Shown here piece after piece: positions 13,970 to 21,757 of a DNA stretch of 64,000 nt; the first letter of the stretch is position 1; each line of letters opens with the position of its first letter. A program made the translations under genes and the position numbers. The stretch spans positions 1 to 64,000 of the forward strand of contig DASXUN010000008.1 of the NCBI GenBank assembly GCA_036504815.1. Direction: 5' to 3'. The DNA is from Gemmatimonadaceae bacterium. Lineage in GTDB: Bacteria; Gemmatimonadota; Gemmatimonadetes; Gemmatimonadales; Gemmatimonadaceae. Below the pieces are notes generated by a model. It was not told the DNA's origin. It ran no database searches and saw only the letters and a program-made list of their open reading frames with translations.

Positions 13970-14512
13970 TCACGGACGTCGTGGCGGCTTGGGAGTGCTG
14001 TGCTGCTGAAAGCTGACGACCAGTCCGCCGCGATCCCGGCAACTCTCCTCGGAGACGGGAGAGTAGAGGTAGGTGCCGTCCTTGCACCGGGCCGTAGCCG
14101 CCGGGGGCGGCGGGCCGTCGGGCGCCGGCACAGGCTCTATGGCCCGTTGCGCGGCCCGCTGGACTGCGGGCGCGGGCGGCGGAGGGGTAACCGCCGGAGC
14201 GTCCGCCGCCGCCGGCGCTTGCGCCGCCGCTCTAGCCGCGGGACGGACGGAGTCAACGGGTGCGCTCACCGACTTGGGCGCAACCGGTGTGCTTCGCACT
14301 GCATCCTGGTTGCGCGGCGCAACAAGCGTCGCAGCCCGGGTCCTCGGCGCGACCGTTTCTGGACGCGGGGCGGAGGCCGGCGGCGGCAGCAAGGCGGGAG
14401 CGCCGTCCTTCTTCGGGGGCGGCGGCGCGGCTTGCGCGCCGAGCGTCGCCATCGGTGAGCTCAGTGCGATGGCGACAAGGGCGACAAGGGCGGAACGACT
14501 CATCGTGCTCAT
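13970..14512 (-). CDS. Secreted Ala/Pro-rich protein with C-terminal DUF3761
   Basis: The 180-aa protein has an N-terminal signal peptide (SRSALVALVAIALSSPMATLGAQA). A low-complexity Pro/Ala linker follows, residues about 28-138. The small Cys-containing C-terminal domain ARCKDGTYLYSPVSEESCRDRGG resembles DUF3761, with two cysteines that could form a disulfide. Its ATG overlaps the stop of the giant Ig-like lipoprotein gene (ATGA), so the two are co-translated and probably act together at the envelope. Role unknown. Confidence 0.83.
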   Translation of the reverse strand: MSTMSRSALVALVAIALSSPMATLGAQAAPPPPKKDGAPALLPPPASAPRPETVAPRTRAATLVAPRNQDAVRSTPVAPKSVSAPVDSVRPAARAAAQAPAAADAPAVTPPPPAPAVQRAAQRAIEPVPAPDGPPPPAATARCKDGTYLYSPVSEESCRDRGGLVVSFQQHSTPKPPRRP

Positions 14513-17500
14513 GGTATCACCGTCACGTTAGGTGCCGTGTATGTTCGGTAGTTCGCGTTCGTGAACGTGGCGCTCGGCGTCCCTGTCGCCGTGGCTTTGA
14601 GATAGAAGTCCACGTAGTTGAGGTTGGCGGGGACCGTGACAGCAGTCACGACTGCGTTATTCTTGCGAATCTCGATGCCGGACGCCGCGCTGATGGAGAA
14701 CGTGGTAGCGGCCAGCACGTTGCGTGTATTTCCGTCGGGATCCCTGGTGTACAACGTCACCAGCACGGAGTCGCCCACCTTCATGGATACGGCCGGCCAA
14801 CTGACGAGGTTGTCGACGCGTCCGGAATCGACCACCACGGTCGCGCTATCGGGGATGTGGTACGGTGACGGGATGGACATCGTGATCGTGTCGGTCCCGA
14901 TCACGCTGCCGATGGTGCGGAAGTAGGCGTAATAGCTGCCGGCCGGGATGGATATCGCCGACGGCACCGTCGCCTTCACCGTGCCGACATGCCCGAGGTT
15001 CACGGTGGTCGCCGCCACCATGTAGTCGGGCGTCGCGCCGTACAGGTTGTCCGTGTATTGCCCAAGTCCGAGTTTCGTCGTGGTCCAGTTCAAGTACGCG
15101 ATCGGGGTGGAGACGGATACGTTGCTGGTCCCGGTGTTGTACTTGTACAGCGCCGCCCGCGCATCGGTGGCCGACAACTGCGACGTGCCGACGGCGGCCG
15201 GTGTCCACTTGGCGCTGTTGTTGTAGTACGAGCCCGCCGGAATGGTGACGGTCGCGGAGTCGATGGAGGCTACTGCCCCGCTCGACGAGGACAGCGTGAC
15301 CGTCACGTTCTCCGTGGTGTAGTGATTGCTGCCGTTGGCATCCTGCGCGTAGACGGTGATGCCCTGTGCGCCGGAGGTCGTCCGGGGCGCCGTGTTCGTG
15401 GTGATGTAGAACTTCGGCTGCGTCACCTGCACCTGCATTGGTGACGCCGGTCCAAATCCGGTGGCGGTGGCCTGGATCTGGATCGTCCCGAGCGTGTCCT
15501 GGGCGACCACGCCGAAGTAGGCGTAGTACGAACCCGTCGGAATCGTCACCGACGCCGGCACCGTCGCCACGCGCGTATCGGTGCTGACGAGGTTCACCGT
15601 GACGGGCGACGTCACGTTGTTCTGCGTGTAGACGTAGAAGCCGGTGGTGCCGGACGTCTGGCGCATCCCGAGCATCGTGGATCCGGCACTGAACGCCAGT
15701 GACGGACCGGTCACGGTTACGACGTTCGTGGTGACGCTCGGCAGCACGCCCGCCGAGTCGGCAATGGTCAGGCTCGCGGTCCCCGGGCCAAAGAAACTGT
15801 AGTAGGCGTAGGTGTAATACACGCCACGCGCGATCCGGACGTACGTTTGCGTTGGCTTGATGACCGTCGTATCGCTTGAAGTCACGCGAACGACGATCGT
15901 GTCAAGCACGTAGTGACTGCTGTTCGTCGAATCCGCGGCGTAGATCGTGATGGATCCCTGCGGACTGGTGGTGAGGGCCGTCGCGGGCAGGCCGGACGCG
16001 GTGATACGCGGCGAACTGACCCGCACGAAGGCCGTATCCGGGAGGTAGCCCGGTGCTGACGCGATCAGCGTGTCAATTCCCGTCGCCATTCCGGCAAAGC
16101 CGAAGTACGCGTAGTAGCTCGCGGCCGGGACCGTCACCGAAGCCGATGAGAGCGAGTCCGCTGCTGCGTTCGTCTGGGAGATCGTCACGGCCAGCGGCGT
16201 GGTGCGGTTGTCCGGCGTGTAGACGTAGAAGGAACTCGGCCCGTAATACTGCCGGCGGCCGAGCACGGCGGTGGTGAAGCTGAAGTTGAGCTTTGGCGTG
16301 ACGACCGTGTACTGCGCGGAGTCGGGCAGATGCCCTGGGGCTGACACGACCACCCACGTCGTTCCGAGGCCGCGCGGTGTCATCCTCGCGTTGTAGTTGT
16401 AGTAGGTGCCGGCCGGGATCGTCAGCGACGACGAATCCACCTGAATGACGCTCGTATCGCGCACCGTGATCGAGACGACGAGCGGCGTCGTGCGACTGTG
16501 CGCGGCGTTGAGCGAATCGCGCGAATAGACGTAGACGTTGTTGCTCGCACCGAACACCCGGTAGGTGCCGCCGCCCGATGTGGTGACCCGCGGTGTGGTC
16601 ACGCGCACGTAGGACGTGTCGCCCTGATACCCCGGCGCCGACGCGATGAGTGACACCGACGTGGACGTATCCAGGCCGGCGAGGTTGAAGTAGGCGTAGT
16701 ACGACCCGGCTGGAATCGTGACGGTCGCGGGTGCACCCAGCTTCGTCGTGTCCGACCTGGCGATGCTGACGGTCAGCGCCGCGACCACGTTGTTCGGGGC
16801 GTAGACGTAGCCGGCATTCACGTCCGTCTGGCCGTTGCCGATGTTGCGCGTGCCGCTCCAGTTGAACTCGAGCTTTGGCCCGACCACGGTAACCAGCACG
16901 GAGTCGGGGGTGTGCCCGCCCGCCACGACCTTGATCCACGCCGTGCCGCCCGCGCCGCCGGGCTGGTACCGAATGCCGCTGCTGTAATAGGAGCCGGCGG
17001 CAATCACTGGCGTCTGGTCCAGGATCTGGATGACGCTTGGGTTGCTCGAGCTGATCGTCAGGGCCAGCGCGCTCGTCCGGTAGTGCGCGGTGCCGACGGA
17101 GTCCCGCGCATAGACGGTTGTCGACTGGATCGGGGAGGTGGTATTGATCGTCGTCGTGCAGCAGATCGTGGTGCGCGGCGTCGTGACGATCATCGTGAGC
17201 GTGTCCGGCGTCCAGCCTATTGCGCTGATGATGACTTTCGCGGTGCCCACGCCCCTGGCCGAGACGGTGAAGTAGCGGTAGTACGAGCCCGCGGGAATGT
17301 CCGAGCCTCCGTTGCCGCCAACGGTCACGACCGTCGTGTCGGTGCTGGTGAACGTCAACGGAACGGCCAACGATGAGCTTTGCGGCGTCCAGACATACCA
17401 GCCGCTCTCAAACTGCCCGGCGCCAAGACGGGCCGTCGCACCGGCGCTGATGCTCAGCACCGGGGCCGACACGTACAGCGTGGAGGCCGTGCCGTTCACT

Positions 17501-20500
17501 CCCGTGGCCACCGGCGTGATGGTAGTGTTGCCCGTTGTGCTGCCCAGCGCGGTGATGACGACATTGCTCGCGAGCTGCCCGGCCGGAATGAAGGCCGGGT
17601 CCGGCGAGACCTGCGCGCGCCCGGCCGTGCCGTACGTGAACGTCACGTACGTTCCGCCGGCGGGTGATGGATCGCTCAACAGCACTTGCGACGCGACCTG
17701 GTCGGTCGCATTCAACGACCAACTTGACTGCGCCATTCGGATGTTGGCTTGCACGGCGACGGCGGCGGTGTCGCCCTTGTAGACGCTGGCGGCATCGGTG
17801 GCGTAAATGAGCGTGGTGCCGGCATTGCGGCCGTTGAGCGTCGCATTGGCCGACGTGCTTCCCGCCGCGATCGTGATGCTCGCCACCGAGAAGAAGGCGT
17901 TGGTGTCGCGGGCGGCGAGGTTGACCGTCACCGGCGAGGCGTTTGGCCGGCTCAGCAGGATCGGGATCGATGTACTCGAGCCGCGTCCCACCGTGAGCGT
18001 GTCGCGCCCGAACGAGATGATCGCCGGTACCGTCGTGCTCACCACGACCACCGCATTGTTGGATGTGACGGTGCCGCTCGTCGCCGTGATGTTGCTCGAA
18101 CCCAGCGTCACGCCGGTCACCACACCGGTGGAGGCGTTGACGGTCGCGACCGCCGGCGTGCCGCTGGCGTACGTGAACGTCCCGCCGGAGATGTATCGGT
18201 TGTTCGCATCCTTGCCGCGCGCCGTCAACTGCACGGTGCCGGTGATGCCGATCGTGTCCGGAGTCGGTCCGAGCTCGATCGTCGCAAGCACTTGCTGGAC
18301 CTTGAGCGCCGCAGACCCGGTCTTGCCATCCGCCGAGGCCTGGATGGTGGTCACGCCGTTGGCGTTCGACAGCGCGCGCGCCCGCGTGGCGCTGATGCTG
18401 TCCAACAGGGCGACGGAGCCATTGGTGCTGAACCAGGTGAACGTCACCCCCGTCATCGGCGCGTCGAGCGTGTCACGCGCCTCGGCGCGGAAGTAACGGC
18501 CGATGCCCAGCGACGCGAGCGCGGTCGTATCACTGACCGGCACGCCTGAGGAATCGCGGCCGACGATGATCCGCGTGATCGGGGTGAGCACATTGACGAT
18601 CGCCGTTCCCACCACCGCCCCGGAGGCCGCTCGCACCTGCGTCGAGCCGAGGGCGTTCGCCGTCACCGTGCCGCCGGTGTCCACCGACGCGACGGTGGGG
18701 GTGACCGTGCTCCACGCAAACGATTTGACGCTCGGCATCGCATTGCCCATGCCGTCCACGGCGCTCGCCGTGAAGGCATAGTTGCGCGTCTTGTAGATGT
18801 TGCGATTTCCGGGCGTGATGCTGATCGTCGCCACCCGCTGCTGCACGACGATCAGCGCCGAGTCCTTCGTGCCGCCGGCCTCGGTCGCGACGATGTACGT
18901 CGAGCCGTTCGCGAGGGCGGTGACGAGACCCGCGGTGCTGACCGAGGCGACCGTCGGCGTGCGGCTGACCCACGTGAACGTGCCGGTCATGTTCGAACCG
19001 GCGCCGTCCTTGGCCTGCGCCGTGAGCGTGCGCGTCGCGTTGAACGACACGATCGTGTCGAGGCGCGGCGAGACGACGGTGGTCGCAATGGTCCCCTGCG
19101 CCGTGGCCGCGAACGTCACGGGCGAACCCGTGAGTCCGGTGCTGGTGACCGTCACGCTCTGCGCCCCCGGCGTGATGCCAAGGGTCCACGTCGCGCGGGC
19201 GCGGCCGTTCGGATCGGTGGCGGTCGTCTGGCCCGAGAGCGAGCCGCCGCCCGTCGCAATCACCCAACCGACCGTCGCGGCGCTCACCGGATTGCCGAGC
19301 GAGTCGGTGACGAGCACCACGAGCTTCTGCGGCAGCGCCGCCCCGGCTCCGCCGGTCTGTGCATTGCCGCTGTCGGCCACGATCATCCTGGCGGGCGCCG
19401 GGTTGACCGTGATGCTGGTGGTCACTGCCGCGGCATATCCGGTGGCGGCGAACTGCAGCGTGTAGGTGCCGGCCTTGGTCAGGCGAAGGGCGCTGAACGA
19501 GGCGACGCCCGCCACCGCGTTCACGGTGGTCGTGCCGCCCACGACCGCGCCGGCCGGGCCGGTCGCGACGGAGGCGGTTACCGCACCCGTGAATCCGGTT
19601 TGCACCACGCCCAACGCGTCCTTCGCCTGCACGACGACGGCCGGCGAGAACGTGACCCCCGCCACCTGCGTCGGCGTCGGCGGCGTACTGATGGCGATCT
19701 GGTTGCTGCTTCCCCCCGTCGCCGTCGCCGAGACCGTCAGCGAGGGCAATCCGGTGGCCGAGGCGGTGAAGGTCTGCGTGCCGTTGATGAGGCCGAGTGT
19801 CCACGAGACGTTGACGACGCCCGATGCATCGGTCGTGGCACTCGTCGGCGTGATCGAACCACCGCCGCTGGTAACGGCCAGCGTGAGCGGCACGTTCGCG
19901 ATGCCGTTGCCCAGCGCATCGCGCACCTGGAGCGTGATGGCCGAGAGCGCGGCGCCTGCCGCGGCGATCTGTCCGCCGCCGGCAATGACGGCGATCGCGG
20001 TCGCTGCGCCCGGCGCGACGTTGAACGGCGCACTCGTGCCGCCGGTCATCCCGGTCGCCGACGCCGTCAGCGTATATCCCGCGCCGCTGCGCGTGATCGT
20101 CAGGCTGTCGAACGTGGCCACGCCGGCCACGGCATTGCGTGCAAGCGTGCCGTTCAGCGTCGCGCCGCTGGGGTTCACGCCCAACGCCAACGTGATGGCG
20201 CCCGTGAACGACGTCACCGGATTGCCCGATGCGTCCTGCGCCGTCACGGTGATTGGCGGAGCGATCGCCATCCCCGCATCGACGGTGGCGGGCATGGCAC
20301 CAAAGACGAGCCTCGCTGCGTCGCCCGCGGTCATGTCGAAGGTGGCGCTCGTGACGGACGTCAGCGACGGGCTCGAGAAGACGAAGGTGAAGCCGGTGCC
20401 GGCGCGGTTGAGCGTCAGTCCGGTAAACGTCGCGACGCCCGCGACGGCGGGCACCGTGGTCGTGCCGCTCAGCGTCGCACCACCCGTGTTCGCACCCAAG

Positions 20501-21687
20501 GCGACAGTCACGTCACCCGTGAAGGTCGGGACGAGGTTCCCGGCGGCATCCTGCGCGACCACCCTGATGGCCGGCATGGCAAGGCCCGCCTTGCCCGACA
20601 CCGGTCCGGTCTGCACGGCGAGCCTCACCGGCGCGACCGAGCGCGCCGTGGCGCTGACCGTCAGCGGCGATCCCGAGAGTCCCGCGCTCGTGACGCTTAG
20701 CGTCTGCGTTCCGGCGGTGGGTCCCAGGGTCCACTGTGTGCTCACATTGCCCGACGCGTCCGACACCGCCGTGGCCGGTGAGGCACTGCCGCCGCCGCTG
20801 GCGGCGAAGGTCACCGTGACACCACCGACGCCGATCCCATCCGACGCGAGGACGCGCGCGACGATGGCCTGTGGCAGCATGGTGCCCGTCGCGGCGGTCT
20901 GGCCGTCGCCGTTTGTCAAACTGAGGCGCGCAGCGGGCAGCGTCACGGTCACGCTGGCGCTGTCGCGCGGGCCAGTCAGCAGCAGCGCATACACTTTCGC
21001 GGTGCCGCGCCCCACCAATTCTGCCGTGCCCGTGGTGGCGTTGACGGTGACCACGCCGGCGTCCGAGGACGTGAACACAATGGGCGTTCCAGGCAATATC
21101 TGGCCGCTCGCCGAACGCGCCTGGGCGTTAAACGTGATGGACTGACCGCGGATCCCCGAAACCGTCCGCGGCGACATCACGACGGACGCCGCCGTCGATC
21201 CCGGGCCGGTGTACTGCACCGGCACCTGCACCGGGGCCGGTGGTGTTCCACCCGTACCCGGGGTGACCGTGACCGGGATGGGGCCGCCCTTGAAGACGGT
21301 GTCGCCTGCCGCGTTGACGTACCCGAGATTCAGGTTGAGCGGCACGCCGCTCGTCGGCGCGTTGGCGGGAAGCGGGACGTTGAGCGACAGCAGGAGCGAA
21401 TCGGCGCCGGCGGGGAAGCTCACGACCGTGTCGAGCGCGATCGACCCATCCTCGCGCCGCAGCGTGATGCGCACACGTTCAAAGGCGACCTGCTCCAGGG
21501 CGGAGCGCAGGGCACTGGCTGGCACCGCCGTTTCGTACTTCGGCTCGATCGCGAAGGCCGCGATCCGCTTGAAGACGGAGGCGGGGGTGGAAACCGGGCC
21601 GGTGACCTCGCGACCGCACGCAACCAGCACGGCGATGAGCAGTCCAGCGGCGACGGTGAGGCGGCGAATCGGCGAAGCGCTACGCAT
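14509..21687 (-). CDS. Giant Ig-like repeat lipoprotein (2392 aa)
   Basis: Start ATG at 21687, because it opens on a lipoprotein signal (MRSASPIRRLTVAAGLLIAV followed by LVAC, Cys24). Residues about 40-190 form a domain shared with the neighbouring lipoprotein (KGGPIPVTVTP, then PVQVPVQYTGPG). Big_1-like Ig units run from about 190 to 865 (for example TAATGTMLPQAIVARVLASD, GNVSTQWTLGP). Big_2-like units follow to about 1270 (TPTVASVSTAGLVTALANGS). The last 983 residues are ten alternating repeat units, described separately. It is probably a lipid-anchored surface fibre or adhesin; Ig-like domains suggest structure or adhesion, but no ligand is known. DUF3761 is coupled downstream. Confidence 0.92.
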   Translation of the reverse strand: MRSASPIRRLTVAAGLLIAVLVACGREVTGPVSTPASVFKRIAAFAIEPKYETAVPASALRSALEQVAFERVRITLRREDGSIALDTVVSFPAGADSLLLSLNVPLPANAPTSGVPLNLNLGYVNAAGDTVFKGGPIPVTVTPGTGGTPPAPVQVPVQYTGPGSTAASVVMSPRTVSGIRGQSITFNAQARSASGQILPGTPIVFTSSDAGVVTVNATTGTAELVGRGTAKVYALLLTGPRDSASVTVTLPAARLSLTNGDGQTAATGTMLPQAIVARVLASDGIGVGGVTVTFAASGGGSASPATAVSDASGNVSTQWTLGPTAGTQTLSVTSAGLSGSPLTVSATARSVAPVRLAVQTGPVSGKAGLAMPAIRVVAQDAAGNLVPTFTGDVTVALGANTGGATLSGTTTVPAVAGVATFTGLTLNRAGTGFTFVFSSPSLTSVTSATFDMTAGDAARLVFGAMPATVDAGMAIAPPITVTAQDASGNPVTSFTGAITLALGVNPSGATLNGTLARNAVAGVATFDSLTITRSGAGYTLTASATGMTGGTSAPFNVAPGAATAIAVIAGGGQIAAAGAALSAITLQVRDALGNGIANVPLTLAVTSGGGSITPTSATTDASGVVNVSWTLGLINGTQTFTASATGLPSLTVSATATGGSSNQIAISTPPTPTQVAGVTFSPAVVVQAKDALGVVQTGFTGAVTASVATGPAGAVVGGTTTVNAVAGVASFSALRLTKAGTYTLQFAATGYAAAVTTSITVNPAPARMIVADSGNAQTGGAGAALPQKLVVLVTDSLGNPVSAATVGWVIATGGGSLSGQTTATDPNGRARATWTLGITPGAQSVTVTSTGLTGSPVTFAATAQGTIATTVVSPRLDTIVSFNATRTLTAQAKDGAGSNMTGTFTWVSRTPTVASVSTAGLVTALANGSTYIVATEAGGTKDSALIVVQQRVATISITPGNRNIYKTRNYAFTASAVDGMGNAMPSVKSFAWSTVTPTVASVDTGGTVTANALGSTQVRAASGAVVGTAIVNVLTPITRIIVGRDSSGVPVSDTTALASLGIGRYFRAEARDTLDAPMTGVTFTWFSTNGSVALLDSISATRARALSNANGVTTIQASADGKTGSAALKVQQVLATIELGPTPDTIGITGTVQLTARGKDANNRYISGGTFTYASGTPAVATVNASTGVVTGVTLGSSNITATSGTVTSNNAVVVVSTTVPAIISFGRDTLTVGRGSSTSIPILLSRPNASPVTVNLAARDTNAFFSVASITIAAGSTSANATLNGRNAGTTLIYATDAASVYKGDTAAVAVQANIRMAQSSWSLNATDQVASQVLLSDPSPAGGTYVTFTYGTAGRAQVSPDPAFIPAGQLASNVVITALGSTTGNTTITPVATGVNGTASTLYVSAPVLSISAGATARLGAGQFESGWYVWTPQSSSLAVPLTFTSTDTTVVTVGGNGGSDIPAGSYYRYFTVSARGVGTAKVIISAIGWTPDTLTMIVTTPRTTICCTTTINTTSPIQSTTVYARDSVGTAHYRTSALALTISSSNPSVIQILDQTPVIAAGSYYSSGIRYQPGGAGGTAWIKVVAGGHTPDSVLVTVVGPKLEFNWSGTRNIGNGQTDVNAGYVYAPNNVVAALTVSIARSDTTKLGAPATVTIPAGSYYAYFNLAGLDTSTSVSLIASAPGYQGDTSYVRVTTPRVTTSGGGTYRVFGASNNVYVYSRDSLNAAHSRTTPLVVSITVRDTSVIQVDSSSLTIPAGTYYNYNARMTPRGLGTTWVVVSAPGHLPDSAQYTVVTPKLNFSFTTAVLGRRQYYGPSSFYVYTPDNRTTPLAVTISQTNAAADSLSSASVTVPAASYYAYFGFAGMATGIDTLIASAPGYLPDTAFVRVSSPRITASGLPATALTTSPQGSITIYAADSTNSSHYVLDTIVVRVTSSDTTVIKPTQTYVRIARGVYYTYAYYSFFGPGTASLTIADSAGVLPSVTTNVVTVTGPSLAFSAGSTMLGMRQTSGTTGFYVYTQNNVTSPVTVNLVSTDTRVATVPASVTIPTGSYYAYFGVVAQDTLGTIQIQATATGFGPASPMQVQVTQPKFYITTNTAPRTTSGAQGITVYAQDANGSNHYTTENVTVTLSSSSGAVASIDSATVTIPAGSYYNNSAKWTPAAVGTSQLSATDARAALYKYNTGTSNVSVSTPIAYLNWTTTKLGLGQYTDNLYGATPDYMVAATTVNLGHVGTVKATVPSAISIPAGSYYAYFRTIGSVIGTDTITMSIPSPYHIPDSATVVVDSGRVDNLVSWPAVSMKVGDSVLVTLYTRDPDGNTRNVLAATTFSISAASGIEIRKNNAVVTAVTVPANLNYVDFYLKATATGTPSATFTNANYRTYTAPNVTVIP
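14512..17460 (-). repeat. Coding tandem repeat: five alternating A-B unit pairs
   Basis: Residues about 1410-2392 of the giant lipoprotein divide into ten units of about 95-105 aa with two alternating types. Type A begins with LGxGQ or LGxRQ, then FYVYTPDN, and carries VTIPAGSYYAYF. Type B has VYARDS, HYRT and IPAGTYYNY. The boundary is marked by PR or PK between A and B. The last B unit is degenerate (VPANLNYVDF). Each pair plausibly forms two beta-sandwich domains. I do not recognise the domain. Confidence 0.8.
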
Positions 21688-21757
21688 GGTCGCACCCACT
21701 GTAAGAAACACGGGCATCCACATCGGTGTCCGGAAATGGCACAACACGGGACTCTAA

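Follow-up and report, generated by a model that had tools for sequence, protein, structure and literature searches.

Organization of the giant lipoprotein locus

The stretch of DNA analyzed here (the window, 64,000 nucleotides of contig DASXUN010000008.1 from a Gemmatimonadaceae bacterium) carries on its reverse strand one open reading frame for a giant lipoprotein (Table 1). The coordinates in the preliminary description are exact: positions 14512-17460 translate without a stop into 983 residues, which form the C-terminus of this frame. We found that this tail is tiled without gaps by ten units of 94 to 104 residues each. Judged from the signal peptide, the ATG is a likelier start than the GTG and would give a protein of 2,392 aa.

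Table 1. Features of the giant lipoprotein gene and the adjoining lipoprotein gene
Feature	Coordinates	Strand	Basis and remarks
Giant lipoprotein ORF	14509..21747	-	2,412 codons (aa) from GTG; no internal stop
Signal peptide (predicted)	21616..21687	-	From ATG (21687) to the lipobox cysteine; LVAC, Cys codon 21618-21616
N-terminal region common with the neighbouring lipoprotein	21263..21597	-	48% identity; called by similarity only
Stalk with Big_1 and Big_2 matches	18049..21262	-	Pfam; length variable among orthologues (length spread)
Unit P1, A-related, without YY	17743..18024	-	A profile 30.9 bits; in 19/20 orthologues
Unit P2, IPAG turn, distant	17461..17742	-	A profile weak, 6.7 bits
Unit A1	17176..17460	-	Unit tiling, profiles
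Unit B1	16876..17175	-	Unit tiling, profiles
Unit A2	16591..16875	-	Tiling, AlphaFold (modelled together with B2, pLDDT 97.5), profiles
Unit B2	16294..16590	-	Tiling, AlphaFold, profiles
Unit A3	16009..16293	-	Tiling, profiles
Unit B3	15703..16008	-	Tiling, profiles
Unit A4	15415..15702	-	Tiling, profiles
Unit B4	15103..15414	-	Tiling, profiles
Unit A5	14821..15102	-	Tiling, profiles
Unit B5, distinct C-terminal cap	14512..14820	-	Tiling, own profile, tree (B side)
Inverted repeat, perfect, 15 bp, 4-nt loop	21797..21830		Between the two lipoprotein genes
Second lipoprotein gene, P0003	21857..24778	-	973 aa

The protein has a type II signal peptide with a lipobox cysteine, which is residue 44 of the translated ORF and lies at the boundary LVAC-GREV. 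A hydrophobic stretch ending in cysteine was recognized by eye in 17/17 orthologue N-termini, some of which have an unusual threonine directly before the lipobox cysteine. The N-terminal sequences support the export of this protein as a putative lipoprotein.

The gene lies 3' of the second lipoprotein gene, P0003, and a divergent SURF1 gene is next to this locus. P0003 shows a weak DUF4350 match at its C-terminus and a Big_1 match that narrowly misses the cut-off. Given their similar N-terminal regions, P0003 and the giant lipoprotein have the appearance of tandem paralogues that differ in their tails. The inverted repeat between the two genes is possibly the terminator of the upstream gene. 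SURF1 also adjoins the orthologous gene in three other loci. In a neighbour analysis of 17 DNA stretches including the window, no gene was kept in most loci besides the giant lipoproteins and the reading frames that overlap with these, which makes an obligate operon partner unlikely within the examined DNA.

Two related unit types alternate strictly in the array

The ten units had been read as five pairs of two related types, A and B, in strict alternation. To this the identities between units lend full support, and the pattern goes beyond chance. At spacings of 1, 2, 3, 4, and 5 units, mean identity in 18 orthologues was 25.1%, 34.8%, 24.3%, 32.8%, and 24.4%, respectively, a clean period of two. 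When all 252 labelled splits into five and five units (126 distinct ones) were scored, ABABABABAB was the best two-colouring, with 8.2 points versus 4.4 for the runner-up. Its own position set aside, a unit found its best match in the same type in 174 of 180 cases. A FastTree phylogeny of the 180 units separated all A from all B units, B5 included, with a support of 0.922, and eight of the ten positions were monophyletic in it, A1 and A2 being the two that were not.

The homology of A and B is clear from profile-profile comparison (hhalign probability 98.8, E 7.8e-17). Together with the tree, this supports the proposal that the two types probably arose by an old duplication. Because the alternation is strict, the subsequent amplification would have proceeded pair by pair, as had also been proposed, and the period of two agrees with it; the congruence of the A and B trees, roughly judged by hand from the identity table, gave no clear answer as to whether every step was strictly pairwise.

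The last unit stands apart. With the B profile, B5 reached 8.9 bits versus 97-115 bits for B1 to B4, and 135 bits with its own profile, and its PAG-YY motif is degenerate (VPANLNYVDF). B5 is thus a B unit by descent only, and a special cap. On profile evidence, the array begins two units before A1, with the related and strongly conserved units P1 and P2. The complete module is P1-P2-(A-B)4-A-B5, 12 units of about 1,170 residues. The five A/B pairs thereby stand as ten alternating units, but in an array that is longer by two and closed by a distinct cap. Likewise, the IPAGxYYxY core thought to be common to the units extends in its IPAG turn to P2, but is degenerate in B5 and lacks the YY in P1.

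The units have a predicted Ig-like fold and match no curated Pfam or NCBIfam family

The preliminary description did not recognize the unit as a known Ig-like family, and this held for curated families. For the array of the window, nothing reached the cut-off in Pfam (best DUF4382, E 0.0098, 16.6 bits against a cut-off of 25) or NCBIfam (best AcuR, 15.1 bits against 247). When 17 arrays were scanned, no family appeared in more than five members, the best E being 0.00051 (CarboxypepD_reg; bits listed for the first member only). A PDB sequence search with the profiles gave weak matches only (best E 0.033), and searches of PHROGs and PADLOC gave nothing useful. The Big families deserve particular mention, since the upstream stalk of the same protein matches both Big_1 and Big_2 (PF02369 and PF02368) at their gathering scores. 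These domains occur in tandem on surface proteins, and their fold is an Ig-like beta-sandwich, as in the A/B units; the A/B arrays differ from them, as none of the 17 arrays scanned (17/17) gave a Big family at E-values up to 1.

The structure of the A2-B2 pair was predicted by AlphaFold as two Ig-like beta-sandwiches with a mean pLDDT of 97.5 and a pTM of 0.86 (68 aligned pairs), with about seven strands per unit (in A2, E9-13 to E86-93). According to this model, A and B would be members of the Ig-like beta-sandwich superfamily (about 7 strands in about 90-100 residues). The model of all 983 residues was all-beta with short linkers and a pLDDT of 90.2; its pTM was only 0.38, and it does not fix the overall shape or the domain angles. 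Foldseek/VIA matches to A2-B2 were mostly Ig-like proteins, among them beta-galactosidase accessory domains, intimin D00-D0, SbsC, LigA, and Calx-beta tandem domains. As common Ig/FN3-like domains dominate the VIA list, it singles out no closer structural family, and a family missing from it carries no weight. Intimin D00-D0 (6tqd_F, Z 11.2, rmsd 10.3, 166 aligned) and the Ig domains of the S-layer protein SbsC (4uj7, Z 9.6, rmsd 11.8, 164 aligned) illustrate this: the large rmsd means that the domain angles differ, and at 8-13% identity only the fold is common.

The A profile, on the other hand, found unnamed "VTIPAGxTSATF" Ig repeats in metagenome-assembled genomes (MAGs) of other groups. 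Whole-protein E-values, obtained for a small set of frames, were 7.9e-34 for a Planctomycetota protein (L088), 5.6e-28 for one from Acidobacteria (L086), and 1.9e-23 for one from Abditibacteriaceae (L085). Pfam found no named domain in the IPAG stretches of these three proteins except a sub-threshold Big_2 in L088. These repeats have the VTIPAG turn and the phenylalanine at A position 63 in common with our array; they differ in carrying Ser/Thr where A/B have Tyr, and profile parsing resolves them into A-like units in a row without alternation. The IPAG repeats matched in other phyla make A and B a derived branch within a broad Ig-like repeat group that has no name. The Abditibacteriaceae genome (G397) had 82 matches to the pair profile at E<=1e-3, spread across many long open frames, and is rich in IPAG-type Ig repeats.

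The repeat architecture is thus real. The domain pair lacks a curated family match, but its predicted fold is a common one and it falls within a broad unnamed repeat. Searches of the open-access literature brought up no account of these repeats, nor of Ig-like lipoproteins from Gemmatimonadota.

The number and order of units are constant among orthologues

Among 395 Gemmatimonadota genomes drawn across the phylum, 31 had a match at E<=1e-5, 33 matched the pair profile at E<=1e-8, and 18 of the 31, including the window's own, had a near full-length array, the other 17 at 44-68% identity. As most of the sampled genomes lack such an array, the gene is not essential to the group. A scan of named-species genomes with the orthologue alignment turned up 16 full arrays, every one in a MAG labelled Gemmatimonadetes, Gemmatimonadota, Gemmatimonadales, or Gemmatimonadaceae, and added L077 and L082, for a total of 20 orthologues with the window counted, most of them from MAGs. 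Single-protein scans of viral contigs, plasmids, and genome contigs found no relatives; the alignment-based contig scan succeeded.

The preliminary description had suggested counting pairs in orthologues to look for length variation, and we found none. The layout P1-P2-(A-B)4-A-B5 was present in 19 of the 20, and the exception, L018, is cut off by a contig end at its start and retains the ten units. Up to 18 of the 20 orthologues had gone into training the profiles for A, B, B5, P1, and P2, and independent tests of the layout are L077 and L082 alone among orthologues, besides the paralogues. The ten-unit module measured 974-997 residues (mean 982, SD 6.5, n=15), and the part before it 1009-1473 residues (SD 149, n=16). 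These statistics leave out L018 (contig edge) and L053 (frame continues past the contig end), and those for the module also L023, which is cut inside B5 by a contig end. L023, whose twin L074 is in alignment A4, is absent from alignment A2 yet included in the 180-unit counts.

For 180 of 180 units, the nearest neighbour was the same position in another genome, and in no case (0/180) a unit of the same genome, indicating, with the constant layout, that the array is not actively amplifying. Orthologues were found in three of the order's families. Barring transfer of the gene among these, the amplification therefore predates their divergence, and the unit number has been held since then.

The gene is patchy in its distribution, because within the genus six of ten further genomes had no match at E<=1e-5. 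In the window's own genome, the pair profile matched this gene only. A distant paralogue set (27-36% identity) showed a similar layout with detection gaps, and shorter related arrays were found at three loci. Eight of the distant paralogous arrays lie near SURF1, the position taken by the orthologue in the window, which suggests a locus where giant Ig-like lipoproteins get exchanged or duplicated. For the orthologues themselves, the constant number and order of units suggest a precise surface module, not a stretchable repeat.

Tyrosines are enriched in the array and recur at fixed positions

In the window, 6.5% of the array residues are tyrosine, versus 1.3% in the upstream part, an enrichment of about five-fold. 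Among the orthologues, it accounts for 4.4-7.1% of the array (18 orthologues) versus 1.0-2.1% of the preceding stretch (17 with usable upstream sequence). In A units, tyrosine occupies position 23 in 82, position 60 in 79, and position 62 in 85 of 90 copies. B units have Tyr 22 in 61, His 31 in 65, and Tyr 63 in 62 of 72 copies. We compared these with 22 copies of the wider family, chosen by a turn-requiring pattern that leaves only positions 58 onward informative: they carry Ser/Thr at position 60 in 15 copies and at position 62 in 14, and agree with A at Ala 61, Phe 63, and Val/Ile 65.

The repeated tyrosines lie at the start of the strand that follows the IPAG turn. Positions 61, 63, and 65 of A are nonpolar in fractions of 0.70, 0.94, and 0.90, so positions 60 and 62 are expected to face outwards, and the same is expected of 23 and 25, which flank the nonpolar position 24. 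Going by strand parity and not by coordinates, the tyrosines would thus point outwards. Strands B and E are adjacent in Ig-like sheets, and the A tyrosines of these two strands might form one patch.

A constant aromatic module on a variable stalk as the proposed architecture

We put at about an even chance the reading that the protein is a lipid-anchored surface or envelope rod whose constant, aromatic-studded C-terminal module contacts a partner. The N-terminal cysteine would be lipidated and anchor the protein at the membrane, and the variable-length stalk of Big-type Ig domains would carry the chain off it. P1-P2-(A-B)4-A-B5 would then be the constant working part, each unit an Ig-like beta-sandwich. 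An old A/B duplication would have been amplified pairwise before the families of the order diverged, after which each position evolved under its own constraint. Through the alternation, neighbours are about 25% identical, which would be expected to limit misfolding between them. Arranged as a ladder of aromatic patches, the tyrosines may contact a partner that is a polymer or itself repeats; candidates are an envelope glycan, an exopolysaccharide, or another copy of the protein. What we infer is that the protein is a rod, lies exposed outside the cell, and binds a partner. Surface display and an adhesin role are likewise putative and drawn from the architecture. That the structural neighbours include surface proteins, namely intimin D00-D0, the S-layer protein SbsC, and LigA, speaks for the reading as a whole. 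Against it, we found no ligand, catalytic domain, or binding site in the giant lipoprotein and no conserved partner gene.

In a bolder form, which we hold to be decidedly improbable, the module would be a fixed-register ladder, with outward tyrosines on one sheet per unit that clamp or read a long repeating polymer, an envelope or exopolysaccharide glycan, at regular spacing. If true, Ig domains in Gemmatimonadota would have a new way of working, as an array that binds polymers.

Chief among the rivals is a purely structural spacer without a ligand, a stiff rod of set length serving as an envelope ruler or scaffold, in which the tyrosines pack neighbouring domains. We consider this possible, though doubtful. 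It would account for the fixed number and order of units, the distinct end cap B5, the predicted all-beta chain with short linkers, and the lack of a recognizable binding domain in Pfam, NCBIfam, and the 17-array scan. However, the module of fixed length follows a part of variable length, so the total length would not be what is measured; the position-specific conservation in every unit exceeds the needs of a spacer, and the parity of the tyrosines suggests outward positions.

The units could also be ordinary Ig-like decoration of an uncharacterized secreted protein, their alternation having no specific role and their number being fixed because diverged repeats no longer recombine. The repeated DNA stretches found in the array share no more than 76% identity, so that slippage has little material to work with; such low identity between units might by itself freeze the unit number without selection, or explain part of its constancy, and the shorter related arrays indicate that the number did change in other branches. 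We nevertheless regard this as unlikely, as residues invariant in each unit across three families and a C-terminal cap in every complete orthologue point to selection on the whole module.

Very remote is a Periscope-type adhesin stalk that varies in length to change its projection from the cell: the protein is a surface-type lipoprotein with tandem Ig-like domains, and its two-type repeat recalls the E-G5 repeat of SasG (PMC9704523), but its units in the window are only 13-45% identical to one another, its repeated DNA falls short of the at least 80% identity required of tandem repeats in the NCTC3000 screen (PMC8201768), and, between species, its unit number does not vary in 19 of the 20 orthologues, the other being cut by a contig end.

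Relation to known repeat proteins and significance

E and G5 domains are not known to be Ig-like. Their arrangement in SasG and Aap resembles that of A and B, in that two domain types take turns in a surface rod (PMC9704523, PMC8201768). Periscope Proteins have highly identical repeats in variable number, whereas the A/B array has diverged units in fixed number. In large multidomain proteins, neighbouring domains are usually less than 50% identical, which has been proposed to keep misfolding in check; Periscope Proteins are an exception to this rule (PMC8201768). The A/B array follows it, because units next to each other average 25% and only those two apart are alike.

The array is an ancient alternating one with a fixed number of units and low identity between neighbours, and it offers a natural contrast to variable-length adhesin stalks. 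The A/B pair has no match at the curated cut-offs of Pfam or NCBIfam and occurs in 33 of 395 Gemmatimonadota genomes, enough to merit a family model. Gemmatimonadota are mostly known from uncultured members, and the array gives a handle on the surface of this phylum.
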